NCBI GenBank assembly: GCA_903845215.1
Contig: CAIMWI010000025.1
Coordinates: 1-40,790 of the forward strand
Reading direction: 5' to 3'
Origin: an uncultured Rhodobacterales bacterium
GTDB taxonomy: Bacteria; Pseudomonadota; Alphaproteobacteria; Rhodobacterales; Rhodobacteraceae
DNA: 40,790 nt
Shown here: one piece after another, positions 15,274 to 37,354 of the stretch
Numbering within the stretch: position 1 is the first letter of the stretch
How the letters are laid out: each line of letters begins with the position of its first letter
Translations under genes and position numbers: made by a program
Notes under the pieces: generated by a model
Databases searched by the model: none
Seen by the model: the letters and a program-made list of their open reading frames with translations, nothing else
Told to the model about the DNA's origin: nothing

Positions 15274-15487
15274 GGCCGCAAGATTAGCGCAAGGCGCGCC
15301 GAAGGGAAACGCCCGCCTTTCGCCCATTTGCGCGCCATTCTCACCGAACCCATGAAAGAGCTTTCGCCCAAATCCCAAAGGAAGGGCTGGACATGCGCCC
15401 CCTTGTCCCGTTCAAATGGCCAAAGCTTGCCCCTTTCCGCCGCATCGGGGGGCAAAGCGCAGTCCAAAGACCGCGGCAGGACAGATC

Positions 15488-16942
15488 ATGACGCAGGTGA
15501 CGTTTTTACTGAACGGAGCCCCCGTTGCCGTATATTCGGCAAACCCCACCCATACGCTGCTGGATTATCTGCGCGACACCGCAGGGCTAAAAGGCACGAA
15601 AGAAGGCTGCAACGAAGGCGATTGCGGGGCTTGTAGCGTGATGGTGACAGATGCCCAAGGCAGCCGCGCGCTCAACGCTTGCATCCTTTTCCTGCCGCAA
15701 CTGCACGGCAAAGCCGTCCGCACGGTTGAAGGGCTGACAGGCCCCGATGGCCAAGCCCATCCTGTGCAAACGGCGATGATAGCCCACCATGGCAGCCAAT
15801 GCGGCTTTTGCACCCCCGGCTTTGTCATGTCGATGGCCACGGCCCATCTGAACGGCGACCGCGACCATGACACCACACTCGCCGGCAACCTTTGCCGCTG
15901 CACAGGCTATGCCCCGATTATCCGCGCCGCCCAAGCCGTCGAAGACCAACCCGTTCCCGCATGGCTGCAAAAAGATGCTTCTTTCATACTTGGGCAAATA
16001 TCCTCGGGGGATCCCAAGGGGGCAGACGGCCCCCTTGGCGCGGGGGGGGGCGGGGAGGCGAGCAGCCCCCCCGTTTTGGGAACCGACAGCGTGTTCCGGC
16101 CTGACAACAGCGATGCCCTTGCCGATTGGTACCTCGCCAACCCCGAGGCGACTTTGATCGCGGGGGCCACCGATGTGGGCCTTTGGGTCACCAAGCAGAT
16201 GCGCACCTTGGGCAAAGTGGCCTTTTTGAACGGCGTGCAAGACCTGCAGCACATCGAATTCCAAGGCCCGCTTGTGCATATCGGCGCAGGGGTCACCGTC
16301 GAATCCCTGCGCAAAGCCATGCTGCCGCTGCACCCGTCCTTTGCCGCCATGCTGCAACGCTATGGCTCTACCCAAGTGCGCAACGCCGCCACCATCGGCG
16401 GCAATATCGCCAATGGCTCGCCCATCGGCGACGGCCCCCCCGCGCTGATCGCTTTGGGGGCCACGCTGCACCTGCGGCGGGGCGACGAGATGCGCACGAT
16501 GCCGCTGGAGGCTTTCTTTCTAGACTACCGCAAACAAGACCGCCGCGCTGGCGAGTTTGTGGCCGGCATTTCCCTTCCCGCCCAAGCCCCCGCGCTGCGC
16601 TGCTACAAAATCTCCAAGCGGTTCGATCAGGACATCTCGGCCCTGTGCGGCTGTTTTAACGTGACTGTGCACGACGGCCACGTGGCCGCCGCCCGCATCG
16701 CCTTTGGTGGCATGGCCGGCATTCCCAAACGCGCCGCCCATGTCGAAGCCGCCTTGATCGGCCAGCCTTGGGATATGGCAACCCTCGCAGCCGCACGCGC
16801 GGCTTTTGCCCAAGATTTCCGACCGCTGTCAGACATGCGCGCCTCTGCTGACTATCGGCTGCTTACCGCGCAAAACCTGCTGACCCGTTACTTCCACGAC
16901 CTTGCGGGCCAGCCCGTCCTTGTCCAACAGGTGCGCGCATGA
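15488..16942 (+). CDS. xdhA: Xanthine dehydrogenase small subunit (2x[2Fe-2S] and FAD)
   Basis: A 484-residue subunit carrying electrons from the molybdenum site through two iron-sulfur clusters to FAD and NAD. The plant-type cluster ligands are Cys41, 46, 49 and 65; the second cluster uses Cys105, 108, 136 and 138 (CGFCTPG, LCRCTGY). The FAD domain starts near residue 200 ([16 protein letters not shown]) and includes [18 protein letters not shown]. The linker between domains (about residues 165-198) is enlarged and Gly-rich because its DNA matches the dispersed palindromic repeat (copy D). The ATG at 15488 starts [13 protein letters not shown]. It overlaps xdhB by four bases (ATGA). Confidence 0.96.
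15982..16081 (+). repeat. Palindromic repeat copy D, translated inside xdhA
   Basis: TTTCATACTTGGGCAAAT then ATCCTCGGGGG reproduces the head of the intergenic repeat with the central CCC inverted to GGG. A perfect 10-base hairpin follows (CCAAGGGGGC 16014-16023, GCCCCCTTGG 16029-16038), then a G-rich tail. It is read in frame as roughly 33 residues ([20 protein letters not shown] and on) in the XdhA linker. The first ten of those residues could be partly native linker. Confidence 0.7.
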
Positions 16943-19218
16943 CCATCGGAGCCTCTCTGCCCCACGACAGCGCCCCGTTGCATGTCACAGGCCAAGCCCG
17001 CTATGTCGACGACGTGCCCCTGCCCCAAGGCGCGCTGCATTTGGCCTTTGGCCTGTCAACCGAGGCCCATGCCGAAATCACCGCCCTTGACCTGACCGAG
17101 GTTCATGCCGCCCCTGGGGTCGTCGCCGTCTTTTCCGCCCAAAACCTGCCCGACATGCCCGATGTCTCGCCCACCGTGCAGGACGAACCGCTGCTGGCGG
17201 TTGGCAAGGTGCATTACGCTGGCCAGCCTGTGTTTTTGGTTGTGGCCCACAGCCACCTTCAAGCCCGCAAAGCCGCCCGCTTGGCCAAGATCACCTACGC
17301 CCCCCTGCCCGCGCTGTTAACCGTGGAACAGGCCCTCGCCGCCAATTCGCGCTTTGAACAAGGCGCGATTGTCTGGAGCCGTGGCGACATTGCCGATCTG
17401 TCCAAAGCCGCCATTGTGGTCGAAGGCGAATTCGAAGTCGGCGGCCAAGAGCATTTTTATCTCGAAGGCCAGATTGCCGCCGCCATCCCGCAAGAAGACG
17501 GGATGCATATCATCGCCTCTACCCAGCATCCGACCGAGATCCAGCACAAAGTCGCCCATGCCCTGCATCTGCCCATGTCAGCCGTGCGGGTGGAAATGCG
17601 GCGGATGGGCGGCGGTTTTGGCGGCAAGGAAAGCCAAGGCAACGCGCTGGCGGTGGCCTGCGCTGTGGCAGCCCATGCCACGGGCAAGCCGTGCAAACTG
17701 CGCTATGATCGTGACGATGATATGGTGATCACGGGCAAGCGCCACGATCTGAAAATCCGCTACAAGGCGGGGGCCGATGCCGAAGGCCGGCTGATGGCCG
17801 TCGATTTCACCCACCTTGTGCGCTGCGGGTGGAGTCAGGATTTATCGCTCGCCGTGGCTGACCGCGCCATGCTGCATGCGGATAATTGCTATTTCATTCC
17901 CAATATCCGCATCGAAAGCCATCGTTTGAAAACCAACACCCAATCCGCCACCGCCTATCGCGGATTTGGTGGGCCACAGGGGATTGTGGGGATCGAACGG
18001 GTGATCGACCATCTGGCGCACCAGTTGGGCCTTGATCCTGTCACGGTTATGCGGCGCAATCTTTATGCCCCCATGGGCAGTGCACCCCAAACCACGCCCT
18101 ACGGGATGGCGGTGGAAGATTCCATCACCGACCAAATTCTCGACCGTTTGATCCAAACCTCAAACTACAACGCCCGCCGTCAGGCGGTGGCAGAGTTCAA
18201 CGCCAAAAGCCCGATCCTGAAAAAGGGCATCGCGCTGACGCCGGTGAAATTCGGCATTTCGTTTACCCTGACCTTTCTGAACCAAGCGGGCGCTTTGGTG
18301 CATGTTTACCAAGACGGCTCGGTCAGCGTGAACCATGGCGGCACCGAAATGGGCCAAGGGTTGAACCAAAAGGTGGCCCAAGTGACAGCGCAGGTCTTTG
18401 GGCTGACGGCGGGGCAAGTGAAGATCACGGCCGCAGATACGGGCAAGGTGCCCAACACCTCGGCCACGGCGGCATCCTCGGGGTCGGATCTGAACGGCAA
18501 AGCGGCAGAGAATGCCGCCATGACCATCCGCGACAGGCTGGCCACCTTTATCGCTGACAAGCACGGCGCGGCACCCGAAACTGTGCGTTTCACCCAAGGT
18601 CAGGTGCGCGTGGGGGGCGAGGTCTACGATTTTGCCCGTGTCGTCGCTTGGGCCTATCAGGCGCGGGTGTCGCTGTCGTCAACCGGCTTTTACGCCACCC
18701 CCAAGATCAACTGGGACAGGGTCAAGGGCCAAGGCCGCCCCTTTTTGTACTTCGCTTACGGTGCCTCTGTCACCGAGGTGGTGATTGACACACTGACCGG
18801 CGAAAACCGCATCCTGCGCTGCGATATCTTGCACGATACGGGCACTTCGCTGAACCCTGTGCTGGATATCGGGCAGATCGAGGGGGCCTATGTGCAGGGG
18901 GCTGGCTGGCTGACCACCGAAGAGCTGGTCTGGAACGCCAAGGGACACCTGACCACCCACGCCCCCAGCACCTATAAAATCCCCGCCGTCTCTGACCGCC
19001 CCGAAGTGTTCAACGTCGATCTGTGGACGGTTCCCAATGCCGAAGACACCGTTGGCAAATCAAAAGCCGTGGGCGAGCCGCCGTTTAACCTTGGGATTTC
19101 GGCGTTTATGGCCCTGTCGCAGGCCGTTTCGGCCTGCGGCCCCGCCTATCCAGCCCTGAACGCCCCCGCCACGGCAGAGCGGGTTCTTATGGCCCTGCAG
19201 CGGGGGCAGAATGTTTGA
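16939..19218 (+). CDS. xdhB: Xanthine dehydrogenase molybdopterin-binding subunit
   Basis: The 759-residue large subunit that hydroxylates hypoxanthine or xanthine at the molybdenum centre to give urate. It shows the Moco-contact sequence [23 protein letters not shown] with the substrate-contact Arg, [12 protein letters not shown], and the catalytic Glu713 in VGEPPFNLG (equivalent to Glu730 of the R. capsulatus enzyme). Length fits bacterial XdhB. It overlaps xdhA by four bases and xdhC by eight, indicating coupled translation of an XdhABC operon. Confidence 0.97.
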
Positions 19219-20146
19219 CCTGCCCGCCCTAACGGCGGCGGTGCTGGCACACGGCAGGGTCGCACGGGTGGTGATCGCGGCCCATGACGGCTCATCGCCA
19301 AGGGAAACCGGCACTGCGATGTTGGTCTGGGCAGGTGGCCAATCCGGCACCATCGGCGGCGGCGCGTTAGAGCATCAAGCAACCCTCGCCGCCCGCACCC
19401 AAACCCAAACCTGCCGGATAGAGCGTATCCCTTTGGGCCCCGCCTTGGGCCAGTGCTGCGGCGGGGCTGTGACCTTGGTGACCGAGGTTTTCACCGCAAG
19501 CACCCTGCCCCAAGGCCCCATCGTCGCGCGCAGTGTCGATGGATCGCCCATGCCGCTGTCGGTGCAACGCTTGCTGGCCCAAGCGCGCGGCCAAGGGGCG
19601 CAACCGCCCGCGCAGTTGCTGCAAGGCTGGTTGATCGAACCCGTCTTGGCCCCCAAACGCCATTTGTGGCTGTGGGGGGCGGGCCATGTCGGGCGCGCGA
19701 TTGCAGATGTGATGGCCCCCTTGCCCGACCTGTCGATCACATGGGTCGACATCAGCCCCGACCGGTTCCCGCAGCATTTACCCGCGGGCATCACCGTCCT
19801 TCCTGCCCCCGATATGCCCCAAGCCTTTAGCCTTGCCCCGTGCAACGCTGAACATCTGATTTTGACATTTTCGCACCTTTTAGACCTAGAATTGTGCCAT
19901 CGCGCCCTTCTTCATGGCTTTTTGCGATGTGGCCTTATTGGCAGCGCCACCAAATGGGTGCGGTTTCAAAAGCGGTTGGCAGAACTGGGCCATAGCCCCT
20001 ATGAGATCGCCAAGATCACCTGCCCCATCGGCCAACCTGCCTTGGGCAAACATCCCCAAGCGATCGCCTTAGGGGTTGCGACCGACTTCTTGCTGCAAAC
20101 GACGACAAAGCTCGCCCAACCGAAAGAGGCTTTATGTTCGATCTGA
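19211..20146 (+). CDS. xdhC: Xanthine dehydrogenase accessory protein (sulfurated Moco insertion)
   Basis: A 311-residue chaperone that binds molybdopterin cofactor, promotes its sulfuration and hands it to XdhB; it is not part of the final enzyme. The N-terminal XdhC/CoxI domain has GTAMLVWAGGQSGTIGGGAL and GQCCGGAVTL with the Cys pair that contacts cofactor. The C-terminal Rossmann domain begins HLWLWGAGHVGRAIADVM near residue 152, and the segment LIGSATKWVRFQKRL is typical. It overlaps xdhB by eight bases and the deaminase gene downstream by thirteen. Confidence 0.94.
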   Translation: MFDLPALTAAVLAHGRVARVVIAAHDGSSPRETGTAMLVWAGGQSGTIGGGALEHQATLAARTQTQTCRIERIPLGPALGQCCGGAVTLVTEVFTASTLPQGPIVARSVDGSPMPLSVQRLLAQARGQGAQPPAQLLQGWLIEPVLAPKRHLWLWGAGHVGRAIADVMAPLPDLSITWVDISPDRFPQHLPAGITVLPAPDMPQAFSLAPCNAEHLILTFSHLLDLELCHRALLHGFLRCGLIGSATKWVRFQKRLAELGHSPYEIAKITCPIGQPALGKHPQAIALGVATDFLLQTTTKLAQPKEALCSI

Positions 20147-21423
20147 TCCTGCGCCAAGCCAATCTGCCCGATGGCCGCAAGGGCCAAGACATCGCCATTC
20201 TTGACGGCAAAATCGCCGAGGTCGCCCCGACCATCGCAGCCGTGGCCCGCGACGAAATCGACGCCACAGGCCGCTTGGTCACTCCGCCATTCGTCGACCC
20301 GCATTTTCATATGGACGCCACGCTGTCACTGGGCCTGCCGCGTATGAACCGGTCTGGCACCTTGCTGGAAGGCATCGCCTTGTGGGGAGAGTTGCGACCC
20401 ACCCTAACCGTCGACGCGCTGGTTGACCGTGCGCTGCGCTACTGCGATCTGGCGGTGACGCAGGGGCTTTTGGCCATCCGCACCCATGTTGACACATCCG
20501 ACCCTCGCCTTGTGACGGTGGAGGCGATGCAAGAGGTCAAGCGCCGCGTGGCACCCTATCTTGATCTGCAAATCGTGGCCTTTCCCCAAGACGGCTATTA
20601 CCGCGCCAAAGACGGTGTTGCCGCGCTGTCGAGGGCTTTGGATATGGGGGCCGATATCGTCGGCGGTATCCCGCATTTTGAACGCACGATGGACGAGGGC
20701 CGCACCTCGGTTGAAGCCCTTTGCCGGTTGGCCGCCGACAGGGGCCTGCCTGTCGATATGCACTGCGACGAAAGCGACGACCCGCTGTCGCGCCATGTGG
20801 AAACCTTGGCGGCGCAAACGGTGCGCTTTGGGTTACAAGGGCGGGTGACGGGGTCGCATCTGACCTCGATGCATTCGATGGACAGCTACTATGTCTCGAA
20901 GCTGATCCCGCTGATGGTCGAAGCGCAGATGAACGTGATCCCCAACCCCTTGATCAACGTCATGCTGCAAGGCCGCCATGACGCCTACCCAAAACGCCGC
21001 GGCATGACCCGCGTGCGCGAGCTGATGGCGGCGGGGTTGAACGTGTCGTTCGGCCATGATTGCGTGATGGACCCGTGGTACGCCATGGGGTCGGGCGATA
21101 TGCTAGAGGTCGGGCATATGGCGATTCACGTCGCGCAAATGGGCAGTCTGGAAGAGAAATCTGCGATCTTTCAGGCGCTGACCACCAATTCCGCCCGCAC
21201 CATGGGGTTGCAAGGCTACGGCTTGAAAAAGGGCTGCAACGCCGATCTGGTCATCTTGCAAGCCCGCGATCCGGCCGAGGCGCTGCGGCTGAAATCGGTG
21301 AAGCTTGCCGTGATCCGGCGCGGCAAAGTCATCGCCCGCACGCCCGCACGGGTGGGGGAATTGCTGATTGAGGGGCGCAGTGGGCAGATTGACCCCTCGA
21401 TCGGGTTTGCGCCCGACTATTAA
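20134..21423 (+). CDS. CodA-family cytosine deaminase, predicted 5-methylcytosine deaminase
   Basis: A 429-residue amidohydrolase clearly homologous to E. coli CodA. Every active-site residue aligns with an offset of four: His57/His59 (PHFHMD), Gln152 (AFPQDG), His210 and Glu213 (HCDE), His242 (GSHLTSMHS) and Asp309 (FGHD). The exception is position 310, a Cys where E. coli has Asp314 (GHDDVFDPW versus GHDCVMDPW). Loss of that discriminator Asp is the feature that marked experimentally tested bacterial 5-methylcytosine deaminases, including one from Rhodobacter sphaeroides. Predicted products are thymine from 5-methylcytosine and uracil from cytosine. Isoguanine, which CodA turns into xanthine, would also fit the xdh operon. 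It overlaps xdhC by thirteen bases. Confidence 0.88.
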   Translation: MFDLILRQANLPDGRKGQDIAILDGKIAEVAPTIAAVARDEIDATGRLVTPPFVDPHFHMDATLSLGLPRMNRSGTLLEGIALWGELRPTLTVDALVDRALRYCDLAVTQGLLAIRTHVDTSDPRLVTVEAMQEVKRRVAPYLDLQIVAFPQDGYYRAKDGVAALSRALDMGADIVGGIPHFERTMDEGRTSVEALCRLAADRGLPVDMHCDESDDPLSRHVETLAAQTVRFGLQGRVTGSHLTSMHSMDSYYVSKLIPLMVEAQMNVIPNPLINVMLQGRHDAYPKRRGMTRVRELMAAGLNVSFGHDCVMDPWYAMGSGDMLEVGHMAIHVAQMGSLEEKSAIFQALTTNSARTMGLQGYGLKKGCNADLVILQARDPAEALRLKSVKLAVIRRGKVIARTPARVGELLIEGRSGQIDPSIGFAPDY

Positions 21424-21646: not shown

Positions 21647-23149
21647 ATGAGATCGAAGGTTGCACGTCGCAGCGGGGTTTTGGTGCACCCCACTTCTTTT
21701 CCGGGCGACTGGGGTATTGGCGATCTTGGCGCTGCTGCGCGAGAATTCTTGGATTTTCTGGGCAAGACCCATCAGAAAATCTGGCAAGTGCTGCCCTTGG
21801 GCCCCACGGGGGACGATGGGTCGCCCTATGCGTCTTATTCGGCCAATGCGGGCAATCCTTTGCTGATCAGTATAGAGGATTTGGTGGCCGATGGGGTTGA
21901 AATTTCCGTCACCCCGCCGGGCAATACCGTGTCGATCGCCCAAGATCTTCATACGGTCAAAGAGGCTAAGTTCGCAGCCCTCGCTCTTGCCGCGAAAGCC
22001 TTTCGCGGCAATGATAATCTTGTCGCTGCCTATACCATTTTCTGCGCCGAACAAGCAGAGTGGCTGGACGATTACGCCTTGTTCATGGCGCTGAAAGACG
22101 GCCATTCCCATAAGGCGTGGAACCAGTGGCCGCCCCACTTGGCCCAACGCGATCCATCCGCCCTAAATCATGCCCGCGCCCAATTGAACGAGGCGGTTGA
22201 TTTTTACAAATTCACACAATTCGCCTTTTTCCGGCAATGGGGCGTTCTGCGCAGGTATGCCCATGATCGCGGCATCGAAATTGTGGGCGACATTCCGTTT
22301 TATGTCGCCTTTGACAGCGTCGATGTTTGGGCCAATCCTGCGAATTTTGAACTGATGCCCGAAACTCGGGAACCTGCGCTGATGGGCGGCGTGCCGCCGG
22401 ATTACTTTAGCGAAACCGGCCAGTTATGGGGCAATCCGGTTTACAACTGGGCGCATCTGGAAAGTACGGGGTTTGAATGGTGGATCAAGCGGTTCAAATT
22501 GCTGATCCAACATGTCGACGTCATCCGAATTGACCATTTCCGCGGGTTCGAGGCGTTTTGGCAAGTGCCCCATGGCGAGAAAACCGCCGTGAATGGCACT
22601 TGGGCCAAATGCCCCGGCATGGCCTTTTTCCAAAAGCTGCAACAGGACATGGGCCATTTGCCGGTTTGGGCCGAAGACTTGGGCCTTCTGACCCACGAAG
22701 TCACCGATTTGCGCGACACCTTCAGCTTTCCCGGCATGAAAGTTTTGCAATTTGCCTTTGGGGATTCCGGTGCCGAAAATCCTTATTTGCCGATCAACTT
22801 CGAACCCAATTTCGTCTGCTACACTGGCACGCATGACAATGACACTGTGGTGGGTTGGTGGAATAGCCTAACCCAAAAGCAACAACAGCAGGTGCTGGAC
22901 TATACCGGCCCGGTGTTAGAGCAAGACATCCATTGGGCCATGATCCGTCTGGCGATGGGGTCGGTCGCCGACACAGTTGTGGTGCCGTTGCAAGATTTTC
23001 TGGGCCTTGGCACCGAAGCACGCACCAATGTGCCCGGACAAGCCAAGGGGAATTGGTCGTGGCGTTACGAAGCAGGCGCCATTACGCCAGACATCGCCCA
23101 CAAGCTAAGGGCCATGACAACCACCTTCGGGCGCGCGTCAAATAGCTGA
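21647..23149 (+). CDS. malQ: 4-alpha-glucanotransferase (amylomaltase)
   Basis: A 500-residue GH77 enzyme that transfers alpha-1,4-glucan segments between maltodextrins, releasing glucose. The nucleophile is Asp296 (VIRIDHFRGFEAFW), the acid/base Glu343 (VWAEDLGLL) and the third Asp is at 397 (TGTHDNDTVVGWW); spacing matches the Thermus enzyme. GGVPPDYFSETGQLWGNPVY gives the family loop. No N-terminal extension is present, so it is the short bacterial type. The ATG follows GAAGGAG. Sampled lines (22261-22380 and 22441-22500) total 91 of 180 G+C, below neighbouring xdh genes. With no glycogen or maltose genes nearby it looks like a solitary insertion between two nucleobase modules. Confidence 0.97.
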   Translation: MRSKVARRSGVLVHPTSFPGDWGIGDLGAAAREFLDFLGKTHQKIWQVLPLGPTGDDGSPYASYSANAGNPLLISIEDLVADGVEISVTPPGNTVSIAQDLHTVKEAKFAALALAAKAFRGNDNLVAAYTIFCAEQAEWLDDYALFMALKDGHSHKAWNQWPPHLAQRDPSALNHARAQLNEAVDFYKFTQFAFFRQWGVLRRYAHDRGIEIVGDIPFYVAFDSVDVWANPANFELMPETREPALMGGVPPDYFSETGQLWGNPVYNWAHLESTGFEWWIKRFKLLIQHVDVIRIDHFRGFEAFWQVPHGEKTAVNGTWAKCPGMAFFQKLQQDMGHLPVWAEDLGLLTHEVTDLRDTFSFPGMKVLQFAFGDSGAENPYLPINFEPNFVCYTGTHDNDTVVGWWNSLTQKQQQQVLDYTGPVLEQDIHWAMIRLAMGSVADTVVVPLQDFLGLGTEARTNVPGQAKGNWSWRYEAGAITPDIAHKLRAMTTTFGRASNS

Positions 23150-23238: not shown

Positions 23239-23712
23239 TTAGCCCCATGCCCCCGCATGCACGGCGGCGGCCTCTGCCTCTAGCATCGGGCCAATCACTT
23301 CTACCTGACGCTGGCCTGCGGCAAAGACGATGTGGCAGGGCAAATCGAGCGTGGGGTTTTCGGGGTGATCGCCGGTGATGGCCTTTAGATCCTTTTCCGT
23401 CAGCCCAAACACCACGCGTTTAAGCCCCGTCCAATAGATCGCCCCCGCGCACATGGCACAGGGTTCGGCCGAGGTGTAGATGGTGCACTCTTTCAGCAAA
23501 TCCTTGGGCAGCGTGGTCGAGGCACGGGTCATCAGCACCCGTTCGGCATGGCCCGTCATGTCATGATCGGGCATGTAGGCATTATGCTGGGTCATCAGCA
23601 CCGTGCCATCAGGGCCGACAAGGATGCAGGCGAAAGGATGATTACCCGCCTCGCGTGCTTTGCGAGATTCGTCGATAGCGCGGCGCAGAAGGGCTTGGTG
23701 GTCTAAGGGCAT
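23239..23712 (-). CDS. Nucleoside/base deaminase of the CDA fold, guanine deaminase-like
   Basis: A 157-residue zinc deaminase of the cytidine-deaminase superfamily. The zinc site is His55-Ala-Glu57 (TGHAERVLM) and Cys85/Cys88 (SAEPCAMCAGAIYW). The N-terminal AIDESRKAREAGNHPFACILV and the short C-terminus fit the guanine deaminase (GuaD) and related nucleoside deaminase group better than TadA. Guanine deamination would yield xanthine, the substrate of the nearby XdhAB. The start at 23710-23712 (MPLDHQALLRRAI) was chosen; upstream extension has no similarity. Divergent from the BMP-type ABC importer, sharing a palindrome-rich regulatory region. Substrate by inference only. Confidence 0.82.
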   Translation of the reverse strand: MPLDHQALLRRAIDESRKAREAGNHPFACILVGPDGTVLMTQHNAYMPDHDMTGHAERVLMTRASTTLPKDLLKECTIYTSAEPCAMCAGAIYWTGLKRVVFGLTEKDLKAITGDHPENPTLDLPCHIVFAAGQRQVEVIGPMLEAEAAAVHAGAWG

Positions 23713-24045
23713 GGGGTCCTCGGGCTTGGGGTTTGATCTAGCATCGCAGGATGGCGGTGGCTGGCAAGGCCAAGTGTCTGGGAAATGCGCCCAAATGGCG
23801 GGCAAAAGCTGCAAATTTGGGCAAAGGCGCTGCAATATGCAGCAAATCCCTTGTGACTTGGGCCCAAGTCGGTCTAGCATTTGGTTCAGAAATCAACCGC
23901 AACGACGGTTGACTTTGGGGGATGGGTTTGGCGGCTTTGCTGGTTTATGTCAGAAATGCGAAGCTGCTTCAAATTGCGGCGGCATATACAAACCAGCGCC
24001 CAATCCGCATCACTCTTCCCACTTGCCTTGCATTACGGAGCCCCG
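23713..24045. promoter_or_regulatory. Divergent control region of deaminase and nucleoside importer
   Basis: A 333-base region without a gene, holding three perfect inverted repeats: GCCCAAAT/ATTTGGGC (23789-23796 and 23815-23822), GCTGCA-ATA-TGCAGC (23829-23843) and the uninterrupted palindrome at 23855-23870. It must contain the promoters of both divergent transcripts. A purine riboswitch was considered, but no TATAA/TATGG-type core loops were found. Long upstream frame extensions of both flanking genes cross this region and lack similarity, supporting it as non-coding. Confidence 0.6.
23855..23870. promoter_or_regulatory. Perfect 16-bp palindrome, candidate operator
   Basis: GACTTGGGCCCAAGTC is an uninterrupted palindrome without a loop, the shape expected of a dimeric repressor or activator site rather than an RNA hairpin. 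It is placed about 140 bases from the deaminase start and 175 from the importer ATG. No regulator gene is adjacent, so the cognate protein is unknown. Confidence 0.5.
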
Positions 24046-25572
24046 ATGGCCAGCCCAGCCCGCCTTGAATTGTCCGGCATAACCAAACGCTTCCCCGGTG
24101 TTTTGGCAAATGACGCCGTGGGCTTTGCTGTCAAACCTGGCGAGATCCATGCGCTTTTGGGCGAAAATGGCGCGGGCAAATCAACGCTGGTCAAGATGAT
24201 TTACGGCATCATGCAGCCCGATGCGGGTGAGATTCGCTGGAACGGCCAGCGCATCAGCGTGGCCAACCCCAAAGCCGCACGCAAATTGGGCATCGGGATG
24301 GTGTTTCAGCACTTTTCGCTGTTCGAGGCGATGACGGTTTTGGAAAACATCGCGCTTGGGATGGATGCGAAAATTCCGGCCCGCGATCTGGAAAGCCGCA
24401 TTTTGGCGGTGATGGGCCAATATGGGTTGAAATTGGAACCGCACCGGATTGTATCGACCCTGTCGGTGGGCGAACGCCAGCGGATCGAGATTGTGCGCGC
24501 CCTGCTGCTTAACCCCAAGCTGTTGATCATGGACGAGCCGACCTCGGTTCTGACCCCGCAAGAGGTGGATCAGTTGTTCACCGTTCTGCGCAAGCTGGCG
24601 CAGGAAGGGTGTTCAATCCTGTATATCAGCCACAAATTGAATGAGATTAAGGCGCTGTGCGATACGGCCACGATCCTGCGCGGCGGGAAATTGGTCGACA
24701 CCTGCGATCCAGCGGTGGAAACCAGCCGGTCGATGGCCGAAAAGATGATCGGCGGCAGTTTGAAAGACATCTCACGCGCGGCGGGGCGCAGCTTTGGGGC
24801 GGCCAAACTGGCCGTGAAAGCCCTGTCTTTGCCCGCCGATGGGCCCTTTGGCACGGCTTTGCGCGACATCAGCTTTACGGTCCGTGCGGGCGAGATTTTC
24901 GGCGTGGCAGGCGTTGCGGGCAACGGGCAGAACGCGCTGCTGCTGGCCCTGTCGGGCGAGGCTACGAACGCCAACCCCGCCAGCGTGACGGTCGACGGTG
25001 TAGACGTGGGCCACCTGCAAGCCCGCGCAAGGCGCGGGCATGGCGTGGCCTCGGTTCCGGAGGAACGCAACGGACATGCGGCGGTGCCGATCTTTACCCT
25101 TGCCGACAATGCCGTGCTGACAGCTCGCGATCGTCTGGGCATGGTGCGCGCCGGCCTGATCGACACCAAGGCCGCACGCACCTATGCCGGTGAGGTGATC
25201 GAGGCGTTTTCGGTCAAGGCCACAGGCCCAAGTGCCATGGCCGAAAGCCTGTCGGGCGGGAACCTTCAGAAATACATCATGGGCCGCGAAATCCTCCAAA
25301 AGCCGCAGGTTTTGGTCGTCAGCCAGCCCACTTGGGGCGTGGATGCGGGGGCGGCGGCGGCGATTCATCAGGCCTTGGTCGATCTGGCGGCAACGGGATC
25401 GGCGATTGTGGTGATCAGTCAGGATTTGGACGAGCTTTTGTCGCTGTGCGATACCCTAGCCGTGATCAATGGCGGGCGACTGTCGCCCCCGATGGCCGTG
25501 GCCGAGGCAAAGATTGACGAGATCGGCCTTTTGATGGGCGGCATTCATGGAGAGGTCGCCCATGCGCATTAA
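24046..25572 (+). CDS. BMP-type nucleoside/purine ABC importer, duplicated ATPase
   Basis: A 508-residue protein with two ABC cassettes, the architecture of the NupA/YufO and sugar-like importers. The first cassette has Walker A GENGAGKST (residues 39-47), signature LSVGERQRIEI and Walker B LLIMDEPTSVLTP. The second has the usual degenerate P-loop (GVAGVAGNGQNALL), signature LSGGNLQKYIMGRE and QPTWGVDAGA. The start at 24046 (MASPARLELSGITKRF) follows ACGGAG. It overlaps the first permease by eleven bases. With two permeases and a BMP-family binding protein it forms a complete importer, most probably for purine nucleosides or bases given the neighbouring deaminase and xdh genes. Confidence 0.93.
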   Translation: MASPARLELSGITKRFPGVLANDAVGFAVKPGEIHALLGENGAGKSTLVKMIYGIMQPDAGEIRWNGQRISVANPKAARKLGIGMVFQHFSLFEAMTVLENIALGMDAKIPARDLESRILAVMGQYGLKLEPHRIVSTLSVGERQRIEIVRALLLNPKLLIMDEPTSVLTPQEVDQLFTVLRKLAQEGCSILYISHKLNEIKALCDTATILRGGKLVDTCDPAVETSRSMAEKMIGGSLKDISRAAGRSFGAAKLAVKALSLPADGPFGTALRDISFTVRAGEIFGVAGVAGNGQNALLLALSGEATNANPASVTVDGVDVGHLQARARRGHGVASVPEERNGHAAVPIFTLADNAVLTARDRLGMVRAGLIDTKAARTYAGEVIEAFSVKATGPSAMAESLSGGNLQKYIMGREILQKPQVLVVSQPTWGVDAGAAAAIHQALVDLAATGSAIVVISQDLDELLSLCDTLAVINGGRLSPPMAVAEAKIDEIGLLMGGIHGEVAHAH

Positions 25573-26638
25573 GCTGGAAAAACGCCACGAGCCTAGCCTT
25601 GCGATGTTGGTGGCAACGCCCATCGCTTCGGTCATCTTGACGATGCTGATCGGCATCGTGGTGTTTGACCTTTTGGGGATCAACGGCTTTGAAGCCGTGG
25701 TGGATATTTTCCTGTCACCCCTGTTGTACAGTTACAAATGGCAAGATGTGGCGCTGAAAGCCGCACCCTTGATCATCATCGCCTTGGGTCTGTCGATGGG
25801 CAACCGCGCGCAAGTGTGGAACATCGGGGCTGAGGGGCAATATGTCATCGGCGCTTTGTGCTGCGCGGGAATGGGCATTGCCTTTGGCCAGACCGGCGGG
25901 TTTTTGGTGGTTTTGCTGATGATTGCCGCTGGCATTGTCGGCGGCGGGCTTTGGGCGGCGGTGCCGGCATGGTTGCGCACAAAGTATAATGTGAACGAAA
26001 TCCTTTCCAGCTTGATGCTGACCTATGTGTCGTTCCAAGTGCTGGGATATCTGGTGGGCGGGCCGTGGAAAGACCCCAACGGGCGCAACTTTCCCGCCAC
26101 GGCCCCTTTGGCCGATGCGCAGACCTTGCCCGTCTGGCCAGAGTCAACCGTGCATCTGGGTGTCTTGGTGGCGCTGATTTTGCCCTTTGTCTTTTGGGTG
26201 ATCATGGCGCGGTCAGAGTTTGGCTATCAGGTGCGGGTGGTGGGGTCTTCCGCCACGGCAGCACGGCACGGCGGGTTTGACAGCAAGCGCACCATCTGGG
26301 CCACGATGATCATAGGCGGCGCAATGGCGGGACTGGCGGGGGGCTTGGAGTTTGCGGGCGTGCTGCACAAAATTGATCTTGGCTTTGCGTCTGGCTACGG
26401 GTTCACCGCGATCATCGTGGCGTTTTTGGGGCGGTTGAACCCATTTGGCTGCCTGATTGCGGGGATCGTGCTGGCTGTGACCTATGTGGGCGGGCAAATG
26501 GCGCAGACCTCGGTGCATATCCCCAACTCTACCGCGGGGATCTTTCAGGCGATGATGCTGTTCTTCATTCTGGCGAGTGACATTCTGGTGCGCTACCGCA
26601 TCCGCTTGATCCCTTCGGCCAAAGCGGCGGGGGTGTGA
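25562..26638 (+). CDS. ABC transporter permease (BMP/nucleoside type)
   Basis: A 358-residue inner-membrane permease of the BPD_transp_2 family with about ten hydrophobic helices. Recognisable features are VALKAAPLIIIALGLSMGNRAQVWNIGAEGQ (about residues 60-90), NVNEILSSLMLTYV, and the FAGVLHKIDLGFASGYGFTAIIVAFLGRLNP loop near the C-terminus, all typical of the NupB-like partner. The ATG at 25562 lies inside the ATPase gene; the next permease begins one base after this stop, so the three are translated together. Confidence 0.93.
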   Translation: MRIKLEKRHEPSLAMLVATPIASVILTMLIGIVVFDLLGINGFEAVVDIFLSPLLYSYKWQDVALKAAPLIIIALGLSMGNRAQVWNIGAEGQYVIGALCCAGMGIAFGQTGGFLVVLLMIAAGIVGGGLWAAVPAWLRTKYNVNEILSSLMLTYVSFQVLGYLVGGPWKDPNGRNFPATAPLADAQTLPVWPESTVHLGVLVALILPFVFWVIMARSEFGYQVRVVGSSATAARHGGFDSKRTIWATMIIGGAMAGLAGGLEFAGVLHKIDLGFASGYGFTAIIVAFLGRLNPFGCLIAGIVLAVTYVGGQMAQTSVHIPNSTAGIFQAMMLFFILASDILVRYRIRLIPSAKAAGV

Positions 26639-26639
26639 C

Positions 26640-27563
26640 ATGGGCATTGATTTTATCATTGCGGCGATCATCACGGTGGTGGGACTGACCACGCCGATTT
26701 TGCTGGCAGGTTTGGGCGAACTGGTGGTGGAAAAGTCGGGTGTGCTGAACCTTGGCGTCGAAGGGATGATGCTGGTCGGGGCGATTTCTGGCTTTGCTGT
26801 GACGGTTTACACCTTTAACCCGTGGTTTGGCGTTCTGGGTGCTGCGGCGGGCGGGGCCTTGGCCAGTTTGCTGTTTGCTGTGCTGGTATTGCAGTTAAAC
26901 TCTAACCAAGTGGCGACTGGATTGGCATTGACGATTTTTGGCACAGGCATTTCCTCGTTGATGGGATTGTCGTTTACGGGGCGAATTGTCATGCCTTTTG
27001 CCAGCGTGTTTCCTGACGCCTTGGCAAAACACGAATACCTGCGGTTGATCTTTGGCTATTCGCCCATCGTGTACTTCGCGCTGATCATGGTGCCGCTGAC
27101 GACATGGTTCTTAAAATCCACCCGAGCGGGTTTGATTTTGCGCGCCGTGGGGGAAAATGATCTTTCGGCACATTCAATCGGCTATTCGGTGATCAAGGTG
27201 CGCTATGCAGCGATTGCCTTTGGCGGGGCTATGGCTGGAATTGGCGGGTGCTATTTCAGCATGGTGATCACGCCGATGTGGGCCGAAAAGATGACGGCCG
27301 GTCGCGGGTGGATCGCACTCGCACTGGTTGTCTTTGCCGGATGGCGCACCGGTCGGCTTTTAACGGGCGCCTATTTTTTTGGCATTCTAATGGCTTTAGA
27401 GCTTTATGCCAAAGCCTCGGGGTTCTCGTTCTTGCCCAGCCAGTTCTGGGCGGCTATGCCGTATGCCATGACGGTGGTTGCCCTATCCTTCATCTCATCC
27501 CGTGGCACGGCGGGGGCCAATGCGCCCGCCTGCCTTGGCAAGCCTTTTCTTCCTTCCACCTGA
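26640..27563 (+). CDS. ABC transporter permease, second (BMP/nucleoside type)
   Basis: A 307-residue permease that pairs with the preceding one to form the channel. It begins MGIDFIIAAIITVVGLTTPI and contains GELVVEKSGVLNLGVEGMMLVGA, the family signature, then SNQVATGLALTIFGTGISSLMG and AGRGWIALALVVFAGWRTGR. It has eight or nine likely membrane helices. It is separated from the upstream gene by one base and followed 22 bases later by the binding protein. Confidence 0.93.
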   Translation: MGIDFIIAAIITVVGLTTPILLAGLGELVVEKSGVLNLGVEGMMLVGAISGFAVTVYTFNPWFGVLGAAAGGALASLLFAVLVLQLNSNQVATGLALTIFGTGISSLMGLSFTGRIVMPFASVFPDALAKHEYLRLIFGYSPIVYFALIMVPLTTWFLKSTRAGLILRAVGENDLSAHSIGYSVIKVRYAAIAFGGAMAGIGGCYFSMVITPMWAEKMTAGRGWIALALVVFAGWRTGRLLTGAYFFGILMALELYAKASGFSFLPSQFWAAMPYAMTVVALSFISSRGTAGANAPACLGKPFLPST

Positions 27564-27585: not shown

Positions 27586-28665
27586 ATGACCATGATTTCC
27601 CGCCGCACGCTGTTTAAAGGCGCAGGCGCTGCCACGCTTGCAACCCTTGCCTCGCCCGCTTTGGCAGAAGACAAAGTCAAAGTCGGCTTTATCTTCCTTG
27701 GCCCGATCGGCGATTATGGCTGGACTTGGGCGCATAACAAAGGCCGTGAAGCGGTTGAGGCCGAATTGGGCGACAAGGTCGAAACGATCTATGTCGAGAA
27801 TGTGGCCGAAGACGCCAGCGCCATTCCGGTGTTGCGCGATCTGGCACAGCAGGGCTGCAAGCTGATCTTCACGACCTCTTTTGGCTATATGGACCAAACG
27901 CTCGAAGTGGCGGCAGAATTCCCCGATGTGAAATTTGAACATTGCACCGGCTACAAGCGCTCTGACAACGTGGCCACCTACAACAGCCGCTTCCATGAGG
28001 GCCGCGCCGTCTTGGGCACGATTGCAGGCAAGATGACAAAGTCGGGCGTTGTGGGCTATCTGGGCTCGTTCAAGATCCCCGAAGTGGTTCTGGGCGTAAA
28101 CTCTTTCGCACTGTCAGCGCAAAAGCAAAACCCTGCAGTCGTCGTGAAGGTGCTGATGATCGACAGCTGGTTTGACCCGCCAAAAGAGGCTGCCGCGACC
28201 GAAACGCTGATCAACTTGGGCTGTGATCTGGTCACAACCCACACCGACAGCCCCGCACCGCTGCAGGTCCTTGAGCAGAAGGGCCTCTTTGGCTTTGGCC
28301 AAGGTGCCGATATGTCGGCCTTTGCCCCCAACGCGCACCTGACCGCAATCGAAGACATCTGGGGCCCCTATTACATCGAGCGCACCAAGGCCATTCTGGA
28401 AGGCACCTGGACCTCGACCGACACATGGGATGGCATGATCGACGGCGAAGTTGTGATCTCGCCCTACTCAGCGGCAGTGACTGCCGATGCGGCGGCGGCG
28501 GCTGACAGCGTCAAGGCCGGCTATATGGACGGCAGCTTCAACATCTTCACCGGCCCGATCTACGACCAAGACGGCGTGGAGCGTGTGAAAGCAGGCGAAG
28601 TGATGGGCTTGGGCGATCTGGCCACGATGGATTGGTTCGTCAAGGGCGTCGAAAGTGCGGCTTGA
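27586..28665 (+). CDS. BMP family (PnrA/Med-like) substrate-binding protein, Tat-exported
   Basis: A 359-residue periplasmic binding protein of the BMP family, which binds purine nucleosides in characterised members. The N-terminus MTMISRRTLFKGAGAATLAT with a following SPALAED site is a twin-arginine signal with probable cleavage after ALA near residue 26. The mature part shows KVGFIFLGPIGDYGWTWAHN, FTTSFGYMDQTLEVAAEFPD and CTGYKRSDNVATYNSRFHEG, all hallmarks. The ATG at 27586 follows CAGGAG. A strong intrinsic terminator follows the stop, making this the last gene of the importer operon. Confidence 0.94.
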   Translation: MTMISRRTLFKGAGAATLATLASPALAEDKVKVGFIFLGPIGDYGWTWAHNKGREAVEAELGDKVETIYVENVAEDASAIPVLRDLAQQGCKLIFTTSFGYMDQTLEVAAEFPDVKFEHCTGYKRSDNVATYNSRFHEGRAVLGTIAGKMTKSGVVGYLGSFKIPEVVLGVNSFALSAQKQNPAVVVKVLMIDSWFDPPKEAAATETLINLGCDLVTTHTDSPAPLQVLEQKGLFGFGQGADMSAFAPNAHLTAIEDIWGPYYIERTKAILEGTWTSTDTWDGMIDGEVVISPYSAAVTADAAAAADSVKAGYMDGSFNIFTGPIYDQDGVERVKAGEVMGLGDLATMDWFVKGVESAA

Positions 28666-35728: not shown

Positions 35729-37354
35729 CTACAGGTCTAGCGACTTCTGTCGTCCGGTTACCTCGTCACGGGCGGCGGGTTTGAAGCTGGCGGTGCGGGC
35801 GGGCAGGCGGACGGCGCGGTCGCGCAGCTGCATCGCCTCTTGGATGGTGACGATCTGGATGCGCGGAACCGAGGCAAAGCCTGCAATCTGGCACAGGCCG
35901 GCACCTGCGGCTTCGATGATCATGTGGCGGGTTGGCGGGGTAAGGGTGAGAAACACGCCGATTCCCGCCCCTTCACGTTCGATCACGCCGCGCAGGTCGC
36001 GGATCATGGCGACGTCCACTTTCGCGCCCGCCTTCACCGACACAATCGCGCGGCCTTCGGATTTGGCGCCGTAAAACAGGTTGCCGTCGATGCCCTTATC
36101 GGCGCCTTTCTTGCCCATGTTGCCCGGTTGGGCGGCAATCAGGCTAAGCGCCCATTTTTCAAACTCGTGATACTGGCCGCGCTGCGCCAGATCGCGCGCG
36201 CCTTCGATGTCTTGGGGCACGCCGTGGGTGGCAAATTGCACATCGGGGAAAGCCTCGCGCAGGCGCTTTTCGATCAGGCCGATGGCCAGATGGGTCACAT
36301 CAATGCCCAGCCATTGCCGCCCCAGCTTTTGGGCGGCATGGACAGTCGTGCCGCAGCCGCAGAAGGGGTCAAGCACCACATCGTCCGGATTGGACGAGGC
36401 GCTGAGGATACGTTCTAGCAGGGCCACGGGCTTTTGGGTGGGGTAGCCGAGGCGTTCTTGATCTACGCTGTGGAGCGGTAGAATGTCATCCCAAACTGAG
36501 GTTACGATGGAACCCGCTTGCTCGCGCAGATAACGCTTTAACGCCGGACGTTTGGAAACATCGTCACTGCCGTCCTTATTTGACGGATACCAAATTCTTC
36601 CTTCGTTATGGAGCTTTTGCATAGTAGCAAGTTGGTAGCGCCAACCTTTAGCTGGGAAGCCAAAACCGCGCCATTCGTACATTAGGTTCGGTCGAGGGTT
36701 TGGGCTGGCCATATCGCCAAGGCGATACAAGCCACGACCATCACCATCGTCGAATTTATAGAAGTTTTTCAGGTATGACTCATCATGTGGTCGATACTGC
36801 GGTTTGAATTCGAACCTCTTTGACTTTGCATAGAAAAGGATCGTGTCCGAAACGTCTGAGAATTTGTGTTTGGCGTCGCTATGCGCTGGCTGCCTTTTCC
36901 AAACAATTTCATTCCTGAAATTCTCCGCCCCAAACACCGCGTCCAGCAAGATCTTCAGGTAATGGCTCGCCGTCGGGTCGCAGTGCAGGTACAGGCTGCC
37001 CGTGGGTTTTAGCACGCGGTGCAGCTCGATCAGGCGGACGGCCATCATGGCCAAATAGGCCATCATGTCATTGTCGCCCAAGAATGACCGCATGGCGCGC
37101 AGCATGGTGGAGGCTGCCGCATTGCCGCAGCGCATCACGTCGCCAAAGGCCACTTCGGCGCTGTCGTTCCAGTGCCAAGTGTCGTCAAACGCCTCGATCT
37201 GGGCGGCTGAGTTGCCGCCTGCGGGGCCTTTGAACAGAATGTTGTAGCTGGCATTGGAATTGAAGGGCGGGTCTAGGTAGATCAGGTCAATACTGGCATC
37301 TTTGATGCTGTCGCGCAGCACCTGCAAATTGTCGCCGTAAAACAGATGGTTCAT
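35729..37354 (-). CDS. Beta-class DNA methyltransferase fused to Mrr-like nuclease domain
   Basis: A 541-residue protein that may combine DNA modification and cleavage. The N-terminal methyltransferase has motif IV DPPFNSN (Asp28) before motif I DPFCGCGTT (Asp329), the order of beta-class N6-adenine/N4-cytosine enzymes. Between them residues 132-291 are the expected target-recognition region; their DNA (36481-36960) is 232 of 480 G+C by hand count against about 64 percent in adjoining lines. Residues 385-500 form an Mrr_cat-like PD-(D/E)xK domain: GADKGIDGN with Asp423 and IVSVKAG with Lys441, where Ser replaces the usual Glu/Gln. No separate restriction or specificity gene is adjacent. Whether the nuclease is active is not known. 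Confidence 0.88.
   Translation of the reverse strand: MNHLFYGDNLQVLRDSIKDASIDLIYLDPPFNSNASYNILFKGPAGGNSAAQIEAFDDTWHWNDSAEVAFGDVMRCGNAAASTMLRAMRSFLGDNDMMAYLAMMAVRLIELHRVLKPTGSLYLHCDPTASHYLKILLDAVFGAENFRNEIVWKRQPAHSDAKHKFSDVSDTILFYAKSKRFEFKPQYRPHDESYLKNFYKFDDGDGRGLYRLGDMASPNPRPNLMYEWRGFGFPAKGWRYQLATMQKLHNEGRIWYPSNKDGSDDVSKRPALKRYLREQAGSIVTSVWDDILPLHSVDQERLGYPTQKPVALLERILSASSNPDDVVLDPFCGCGTTVHAAQKLGRQWLGIDVTHLAIGLIEKRLREAFPDVQFATHGVPQDIEGARDLAQRGQYHEFEKWALSLIAAQPGNMGKKGADKGIDGNLFYGAKSEGRAIVSVKAGAKVDVAMIRDLRGVIEREGAGIGVFLTLTPPTRHMIIEAAGAGLCQIAGFASVPRIQIVTIQEAMQLRDRAVRLPARTASFKPAARDEVTGRQKSLDL

Follow-up and report, generated by a model that had tools for sequence, protein, structure and literature searches.

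The window, by which we mean the whole 40,790-nt stretch analysed here (contig CAIMWI010000025.1 of an uncultured Rhodobacterales bacterium, Rhodobacteraceae), carries a gene for a CodA-like amidohydrolase behind the xanthine dehydrogenase genes xdhABC. In our judgement, this gene probably encodes a cytosine-type deaminase of NCBIfam subfamily PRK07572 ('cytosine deaminase'), imported from a Rhizobiaceae-like donor and lodged in a nucleobase nitrogen-scavenging island. The enzyme belongs to a known family, and the xdhABC-deaminase arrangement is lineage-specific.

The Deaminase and Its Active Site

The deaminase gene occupies positions 20134 to 21423 (+ strand), an ORF of 429 amino acids that was assigned by phmmer and NCBIfam and whose MFDL opening, common to its homologues, backs the start chosen. 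Comparison with CodA chains by phmmer gave an E-value of ~1e-107, so the likeness to CodA is not due to chance, and identity with E. coli CodA is 43–44%. Residues 57 to 310 align with CodA (1k6w numbering) without gaps at a constant offset of four, and His57, His59, Gln152, His210, Glu213, His242, and Asp309 were all found at the places assigned to them in the preliminary description. The same alignment bears out the proposed replacement of the discriminator Asp, since D313 of CodA, a metal ligand, pairs with D309, and D314 pairs with C310, encoded by TGC at 21061 to 21063 (+ strand). A predicted model of the deaminase (mean pLDDT 82.9) matched the CodA structure 3o7u with a TM score of 0.89, and the 5-methylcytosine deaminase structure 4r7w with a TM score of 0.86. 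Confidence is below 50 in segment 311–317 of the model, so it is the sequence alignment that places Cys310 at CodA position 314.

The deaminase keeps an intact CodA-type active site minus the discriminator Asp. E. coli CodA (1k6w, 3o7u) has the same fold and the same metal and catalytic residues, but differs in Asp314 (Cys in the window), in belonging to subfamily PRK09230, and in its partner, codB. K. pneumoniae Kpn00632 (4r7w, 4r85, 4r88) is alike in fold, in catalytic residues, and in the loss of Asp314, but has Ser rather than Cys at that position. By the CodA mechanism, a metal-dependent amidohydrolase of this kind would hydrolyse the exocyclic amine of 4-amino-2-oxo-pyrimidine-type bases, using a His/His/His/Asp metal site, with Glu213 and His242 for proton transfer. 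With Cys in place of Asp, the pocket would be open on its C5 side, which would probably let the enzyme accept cytosine as well as cytosines with a C5 substituent (5-methylcytosine, for example), and possibly isoguanine.

Subfamily Membership and Position 310

The window deaminase scored 778 bits with the PRK07572 model (NF005748; cutoff 438) over residues 1–421, and 427.6 bits with the model for CodA proper, PRK09230 (NF006685), which is below the cutoff of 483. It has the metal ligands and catalytic Glu, His, and Asp of CodA proper, and Cys310 instead of Asp at position 314. E. coli CodA scores 895.7 bits with PRK09230, yet its 490.9 bits with PRK07572 also exceed the cutoff of 438, so the better-scoring of the two models decides the subfamily.

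Two sets of loci were compared. Of 588 confirmed relatives, the best 80 make up the named loci, a set that therefore leans to close kin. The family loci derive from 149 sampled genomes of the family, 58 of which, the window's own included, carry the gene; one locus was taken from each of the 57 others, leaving out a second, partial match in one genome (G139, C79). L092 and G161 are one record, sharing contig number, length, and coordinates, and L128 very probably equals G156, with which it shares contig number and coordinates, so these entries are not independent; named and numbered genomes may overlap further. At position 310, all 80 named loci (best 80 of 588) have Cys, as do 56 of the 57 family loci, the remaining one having Ser, and the metal and catalytic residues are invariant in both sets (80/80, again the best of 588, and 57/57). 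Because Cys is present in 136 of 137 sampled loci (80 of them the best of 588), it is the norm of sampled PRK07572 and no special trait of the window gene. An Enterobacter protein related to 4r7w (L172; codB neighbour, 43% identical to the window protein) lacks Asp at 314, yet scores as PRK09230. Together with the Cys of PRK07572, this indicates that the Asp was lost in both subfamilies, perhaps independently. One in-frame stop was seen in each of three deaminase copies, L041 (TGA), L081 (TGA), and G158:C50:2732-3964 (TAA), which are possibly decaying genes or assembly errors.

Locus L083 (genome G051) is probably the Rhodobacter sphaeroides 5-methylcytosine deaminase Rsp0341, and its protein is 59% identical to that of the window. 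L083 is likewise a PRK07572 protein (746.3 bits) with Cys at the Asp314 position and the same metal and catalytic residues. It differs in its neighbour, which is a BMP-type ABC transporter (the xdhABC genes of G051 are on a separate contig), and in having Trp306 and Gln308 (window positions) where the window protein has Phe and His.

Gene Order in the Window

Upstream of the deaminase, all on the + strand, lie xdhA (15488 to 16942; TIGR02963, 583 bits, cutoff 467), whose ORF opens at 15416 but is matched from ORF residue 28, the start being likely at 15488; xdhB (16939 to 19218; TIGR02965, 1181.4 bits, cutoff 849.5); and xdhC (19211 to 20146; TIGR02964, 240.3 bits, cutoff 161.6). The overlap between xdhC and the deaminase is 13 bases, as first described, with the xdhC stop inside the deaminase gene. 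Promoter-like and terminator-like sites between 15200 and 24200 were about as numerous as expected (2 found vs 2.3 expected, and 11 vs 12.0, respectively), so we conclude nothing from them on transcription; the deaminase may be co-transcribed with xdhABC.

Downstream, malQ, for a 4-alpha-glucanotransferase (21647 to 23149, + strand; TIGR00217, 388.2 bits, cutoff 205.65), separates the deaminase from a guaD-like gene for a putative deaminase of the cytidine-deaminase fold (23239 to 23712, - strand; PF00383), whose ORF opens at 23880 and whose start is likely at 23712. Guanine and guanosine deaminases are among the PDB relatives of the guaD-like protein, but the scores of CMP/dCMP deaminases are slightly higher and TadA is close behind, and we treat the guaD assignment as a family-level match only. 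A BMP-type ABC transporter follows on the + strand, comprising an ATPase (23881 to 25572, these being ORF limits, with the true start probably later), two permeases recognised by profile match (25547 to 26638 and 26640 to 27563), and a BMP/PnrA-like substrate-binding protein (27586 to 28665; PF02608, 140 bits), for which the longest ORF opens at 27478 and an ATG lies at 27586. A malQ gene also stands between deaminase and guaD in L092 (= G161), and is absent from the other xdh-linked loci read, a comparison that left out G152–G154.

Linkage to xdhABC Among Relatives

Within the genus, xdhC adjoins the deaminase in 12 of 16 genomes, the window's own included (G000, G077, G149, G150, G151–G154, G156, and G160–G162); for G152–G154 the linkage was read from coordinates only, and in G150 the contig breaks off after the first 69 residues of the deaminase. 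In two other genomes (G155, G159), deaminase, guaD, and transporter stand together, and xdhB is on a separate contig. G157 has no deaminase in the 5.8 kb read after xdhC; only a fragment turns up, on a short contig elsewhere. The xdhC contig of G158 stops ~0.8 kb after that gene, and elsewhere only a deaminase copy of 59% was found. The 13-base overlap recurs in 4 of the 14 xdh-linked loci measured (the window, L092, L191, and L098, with L092 and L191 being one record), and in the remaining 10 xdhC and deaminase lie 30 to 148 bases apart, so translational coupling is no general feature. One of these xdh-linked loci, L098, lacks a guaD in the 6 kb downstream. In genomes G003, G010, G019, and G051, a native transporter, 44–57% identical to the window's, stands directly after xdhC; in G034, guaD and a native-type transporter do, and the contig of G021 ends too early to read past xdhC. 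G159 also has a second, distant xdh-like gene set (L178:15857-17960; 27–43% identity) after its deaminase-linked transporter.

Neighbours across the wider sample were counted by targeted tblastn at set distances, a transporter being scored as an ATPase and a permease on the same strand. A BMP-type ABC transporter adjoins the deaminase in 46 of the 57 family loci and in 47 of the 80 named loci (best 80 of 588), making it the commonest neighbour (93 of 137 loci, 80 of them the best of 588). xdhC lies upstream in one family locus and six named loci (7/137 in all, with the same limit on the 80), and neither gene was found in 10 family and 27 named loci (best 80 of 588), some of which are short contigs. 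Linkage to xdhC is thus not kept across relatives. Of the partnership originally proposed, the position of the deaminase behind xdhABC stands, but it is confined to one clade, and the usual neighbour is a BMP-type transporter. A search of the open-licence PMC literature found no description of an xdh/cytosine-deaminase operon, which is not proof of its being undescribed.

The alternative arrangement is clearest in three annotated rhizobial plasmids, where the order is BMP protein, amidase, ATPase, permease, permease, and deaminase, with no xdh within 12 kb of the deaminase in the three records. The deaminase of this operon (found, e.g., on R. etli CIAT 652 plasmid pC) is 78–80% identical to that of the window and has the same active-site stretches, but its setting differs in having a transporter of its own and an amidase. 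In Rhizobiaceae, deaminase and BMP-type importer are often accompanied by an amidase-signature protein (PF01425; e.g., L090:7054-8466). The importer, uncharacterised and often with an amidase, is where the natural substrate of the subfamily should be looked for.

Origin of the Gene

In a tree of 59 rows, a hand-picked subset, the 8 xdh-linked rows form one clade (support 98/91). This clade sits inside a larger Hyphomicrobiales clade of Rhizobiaceae, Brucellaceae, Phyllobacteriaceae, and a Devosia (96/97) that contains no other Rhodobacteraceae; support for nesting inside Rhizobiaceae itself is 94/83 and 94/88, i.e., below 95. A single Rhodobacteraceae clade was rejected (27 rows vs 32; p-AU 8.9e-5), the group for this AU test having been named after a quick 140-row tree, which omitted L089–L091, had been seen. 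The nearest plasmid-borne sequences are rhizobial, at ~80%, and the best Rhodobacteraceae genome outside the genus reaches 73% identity to the window deaminase. Because the xdh-linked copies are one clade nested among Rhizobiaceae and their relatives, the gene was probably imported into the Rhodobacteraceae lineage, and the tree points to transfer from a Rhizobiaceae-like donor to Rhodobacteraceae. The donor's kin usually carry the gene with a BMP-type ABC importer of their own and often an amidase; after transfer it would have come to stand behind xdhABC, usually beside guaD and a different BMP-type transporter, probably for purines or nucleosides. The locus would then work as a nucleobase nitrogen-scavenging island, with the xdh co-location peculiar to this lineage.

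In Rhizobium sp. C4 (L120), a stretch of ~9 kb holds an MFS gene and a transporter together with a deaminase (76%) and a guaD (85%). The ATPase of this transporter is 81% identical to the window's, compared with 55–57% in Rhodobacteraceae with the native transporter; the xdhB of L120 is >200 kb from the deaminase, or on another contig. The deaminase of G149, G151, and G162 likewise has an MFS gene close by, 70–71% identical to that of L120. The gene set of L120 and the recurring MFS gene suggest, as a possibility only, that deaminase, MFS gene, guaD, and transporter were imported as one block. L120 is the only one with guaD nearby among the 74 named loci that have no xdh linkage (named loci being the best 80 of 588). 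G034, from another genus that lacks a matching deaminase, has beside xdhC a guaD (L185:6633-7094) whose identity to that of the window is 89% across residues 59–212 (154 residues). Since this is closer than the 85% of L120, guaD may be native rather than imported. The second permease of the window was found in 3 of 385 genomes in a class-wide search (E<=1e-100); of the two besides the window's own, G269 carries permease and deaminase on separate contigs, and G539 gave no deaminase match at the threshold.

Candidate Substrates

Bacterial 5-methylcytosine deaminases were reportedly recognised by Hitchcock and colleagues, in 2014, as CodA homologues with Asp314 replaced, and the window protein, with its Cys310, has such a replacement. 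A later account gives Ser as the residue of the K. pneumoniae 5-methylcytosine deaminase here (PMC6186785, numbering one higher), and a CodA mutant with Ala there gains 5-methylcytosine activity (PMC6186785, citing Hitchcock et al. 2014). The same account gives Gly for 8-oxoguanine and isocytosine deaminases, and two of the Gly-bearing deaminases convert guanine and 8-oxoguanine (PMC6186785). Because the Asp is thus also lost with purine substrates, its loss is permissive for 5-methylcytosine and not diagnostic. The earlier use of a single residue as a criterion is therefore kept in part and corrected in part. The Asp is indeed gone from an otherwise intact site, but its absence alone cannot name 5-methylcytosine as the substrate, because it is missing in 137 of 137 sampled loci (80 of them the best of 588) and in some purine deaminases. 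Judged from its residues, acceptance of 5-methylcytosine by the window enzyme is plausible.

Three narrower assignments, to plain cytosine, isoguanine, or 5-methylcytosine, are refinements within the reading we favour, an imported PRK07572 deaminase of cytosine type. A plain cytosine deaminase, serving nitrogen or uracil salvage and happening to tolerate 5-methylcytosine, is possible, and we put it forward tentatively. The CodA metal and catalytic residues, the identity to CodA, and the NCBIfam subfamily name all point to it, but the absence of CodA's Asp from every sampled subfamily locus (137/137, with the limit just given) does not.

A somewhat doubtful assignment is that to isoguanine (2-oxoadenine), which the enzyme would convert to xanthine for the xanthine dehydrogenase of the operon, parallel to the conversion of guanine to xanthine by GuaD. 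This is the deamination that would fit a coupling to xanthine dehydrogenase: xdhABC, the guaD-like gene, and the BMP-type transporter all surround the deaminase, E. coli CodA is labelled cytosine/isoguanine deaminase in RefSeq, and purines are substrates of related deaminases that lack the Asp, according to PMC6186785. The same active-site stretches are present, however, in rhizobial copies with non-purine neighbours; the deaminase is not beside xdhC in G155 and G159, guaD is missing downstream in L098 over the distance given above, and the guaD assignment is itself at family level. A wider version, in which a relaxed-pocket deaminase was recruited by transfer as a third entry to xanthine, passing isoguanine (oxidised adenine) to xanthine dehydrogenase, strikes us as quite unlikely. 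If true, damaged purine bases would have a pathway dedicated to them, made out of a subfamily in which methylated cytosine is the substrate of the characterised member. The locus offers a testable case of a probably imported deaminase lodged in a purine operon.

That 5-methylcytosine is the main physiological substrate, with thymine as the product and a functional tie of the enzyme to purine oxidation as the preliminary description proposed, we consider unlikely. Thymine is not known to be a substrate of xanthine dehydrogenase or to enter that step, so a coupling of 5-methylcytosine deamination to purine oxidation is not supported, and the xdh link is lineage-specific. In favour of this assignment, Asp314 is replaced, as it is in the probable R. 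sphaeroides enzyme and in the K. pneumoniae enzyme, and proteins for thymine breakdown appear to be present. PreA (705.8 bits, cutoff 335) is encoded in the genome from which the window comes, and beside it a PreT-like protein that matched the Pfam dihydropyrimidine dehydrogenase domain II, NCBIfam PreT giving no match at the threshold used; the pair lies at G000:C20, L204:9187-11803 (- strand). The two could allow reductive breakdown of uracil or thymine in that genome, where a search for RutA, run without a positive control, gave no match. PMC6186785 cites 5-methylcytosine activity for such enzymes, but also records the loss of the Asp in purine deaminases.

A deaminase of another N-heterocycle (creatinine, or an ammelide-like compound) is very unlikely: AtzC ranks next in relatedness behind the cytosine deaminases, and an amidase lies near the gene in 31 of the 80 named loci (best 80 of 588) and 5 of the 57 family loci, but AtzC is far more distant (163 vs 364 bits), and no amidase was found among the ten window proteins scanned.

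Elsewhere in the window, a 541-amino-acid ORF (35729 to 37354, - strand) combines an N6/N4 DNA methylase domain with an Mrr-type nuclease domain, and its product is possibly a fused restriction-modification protein.
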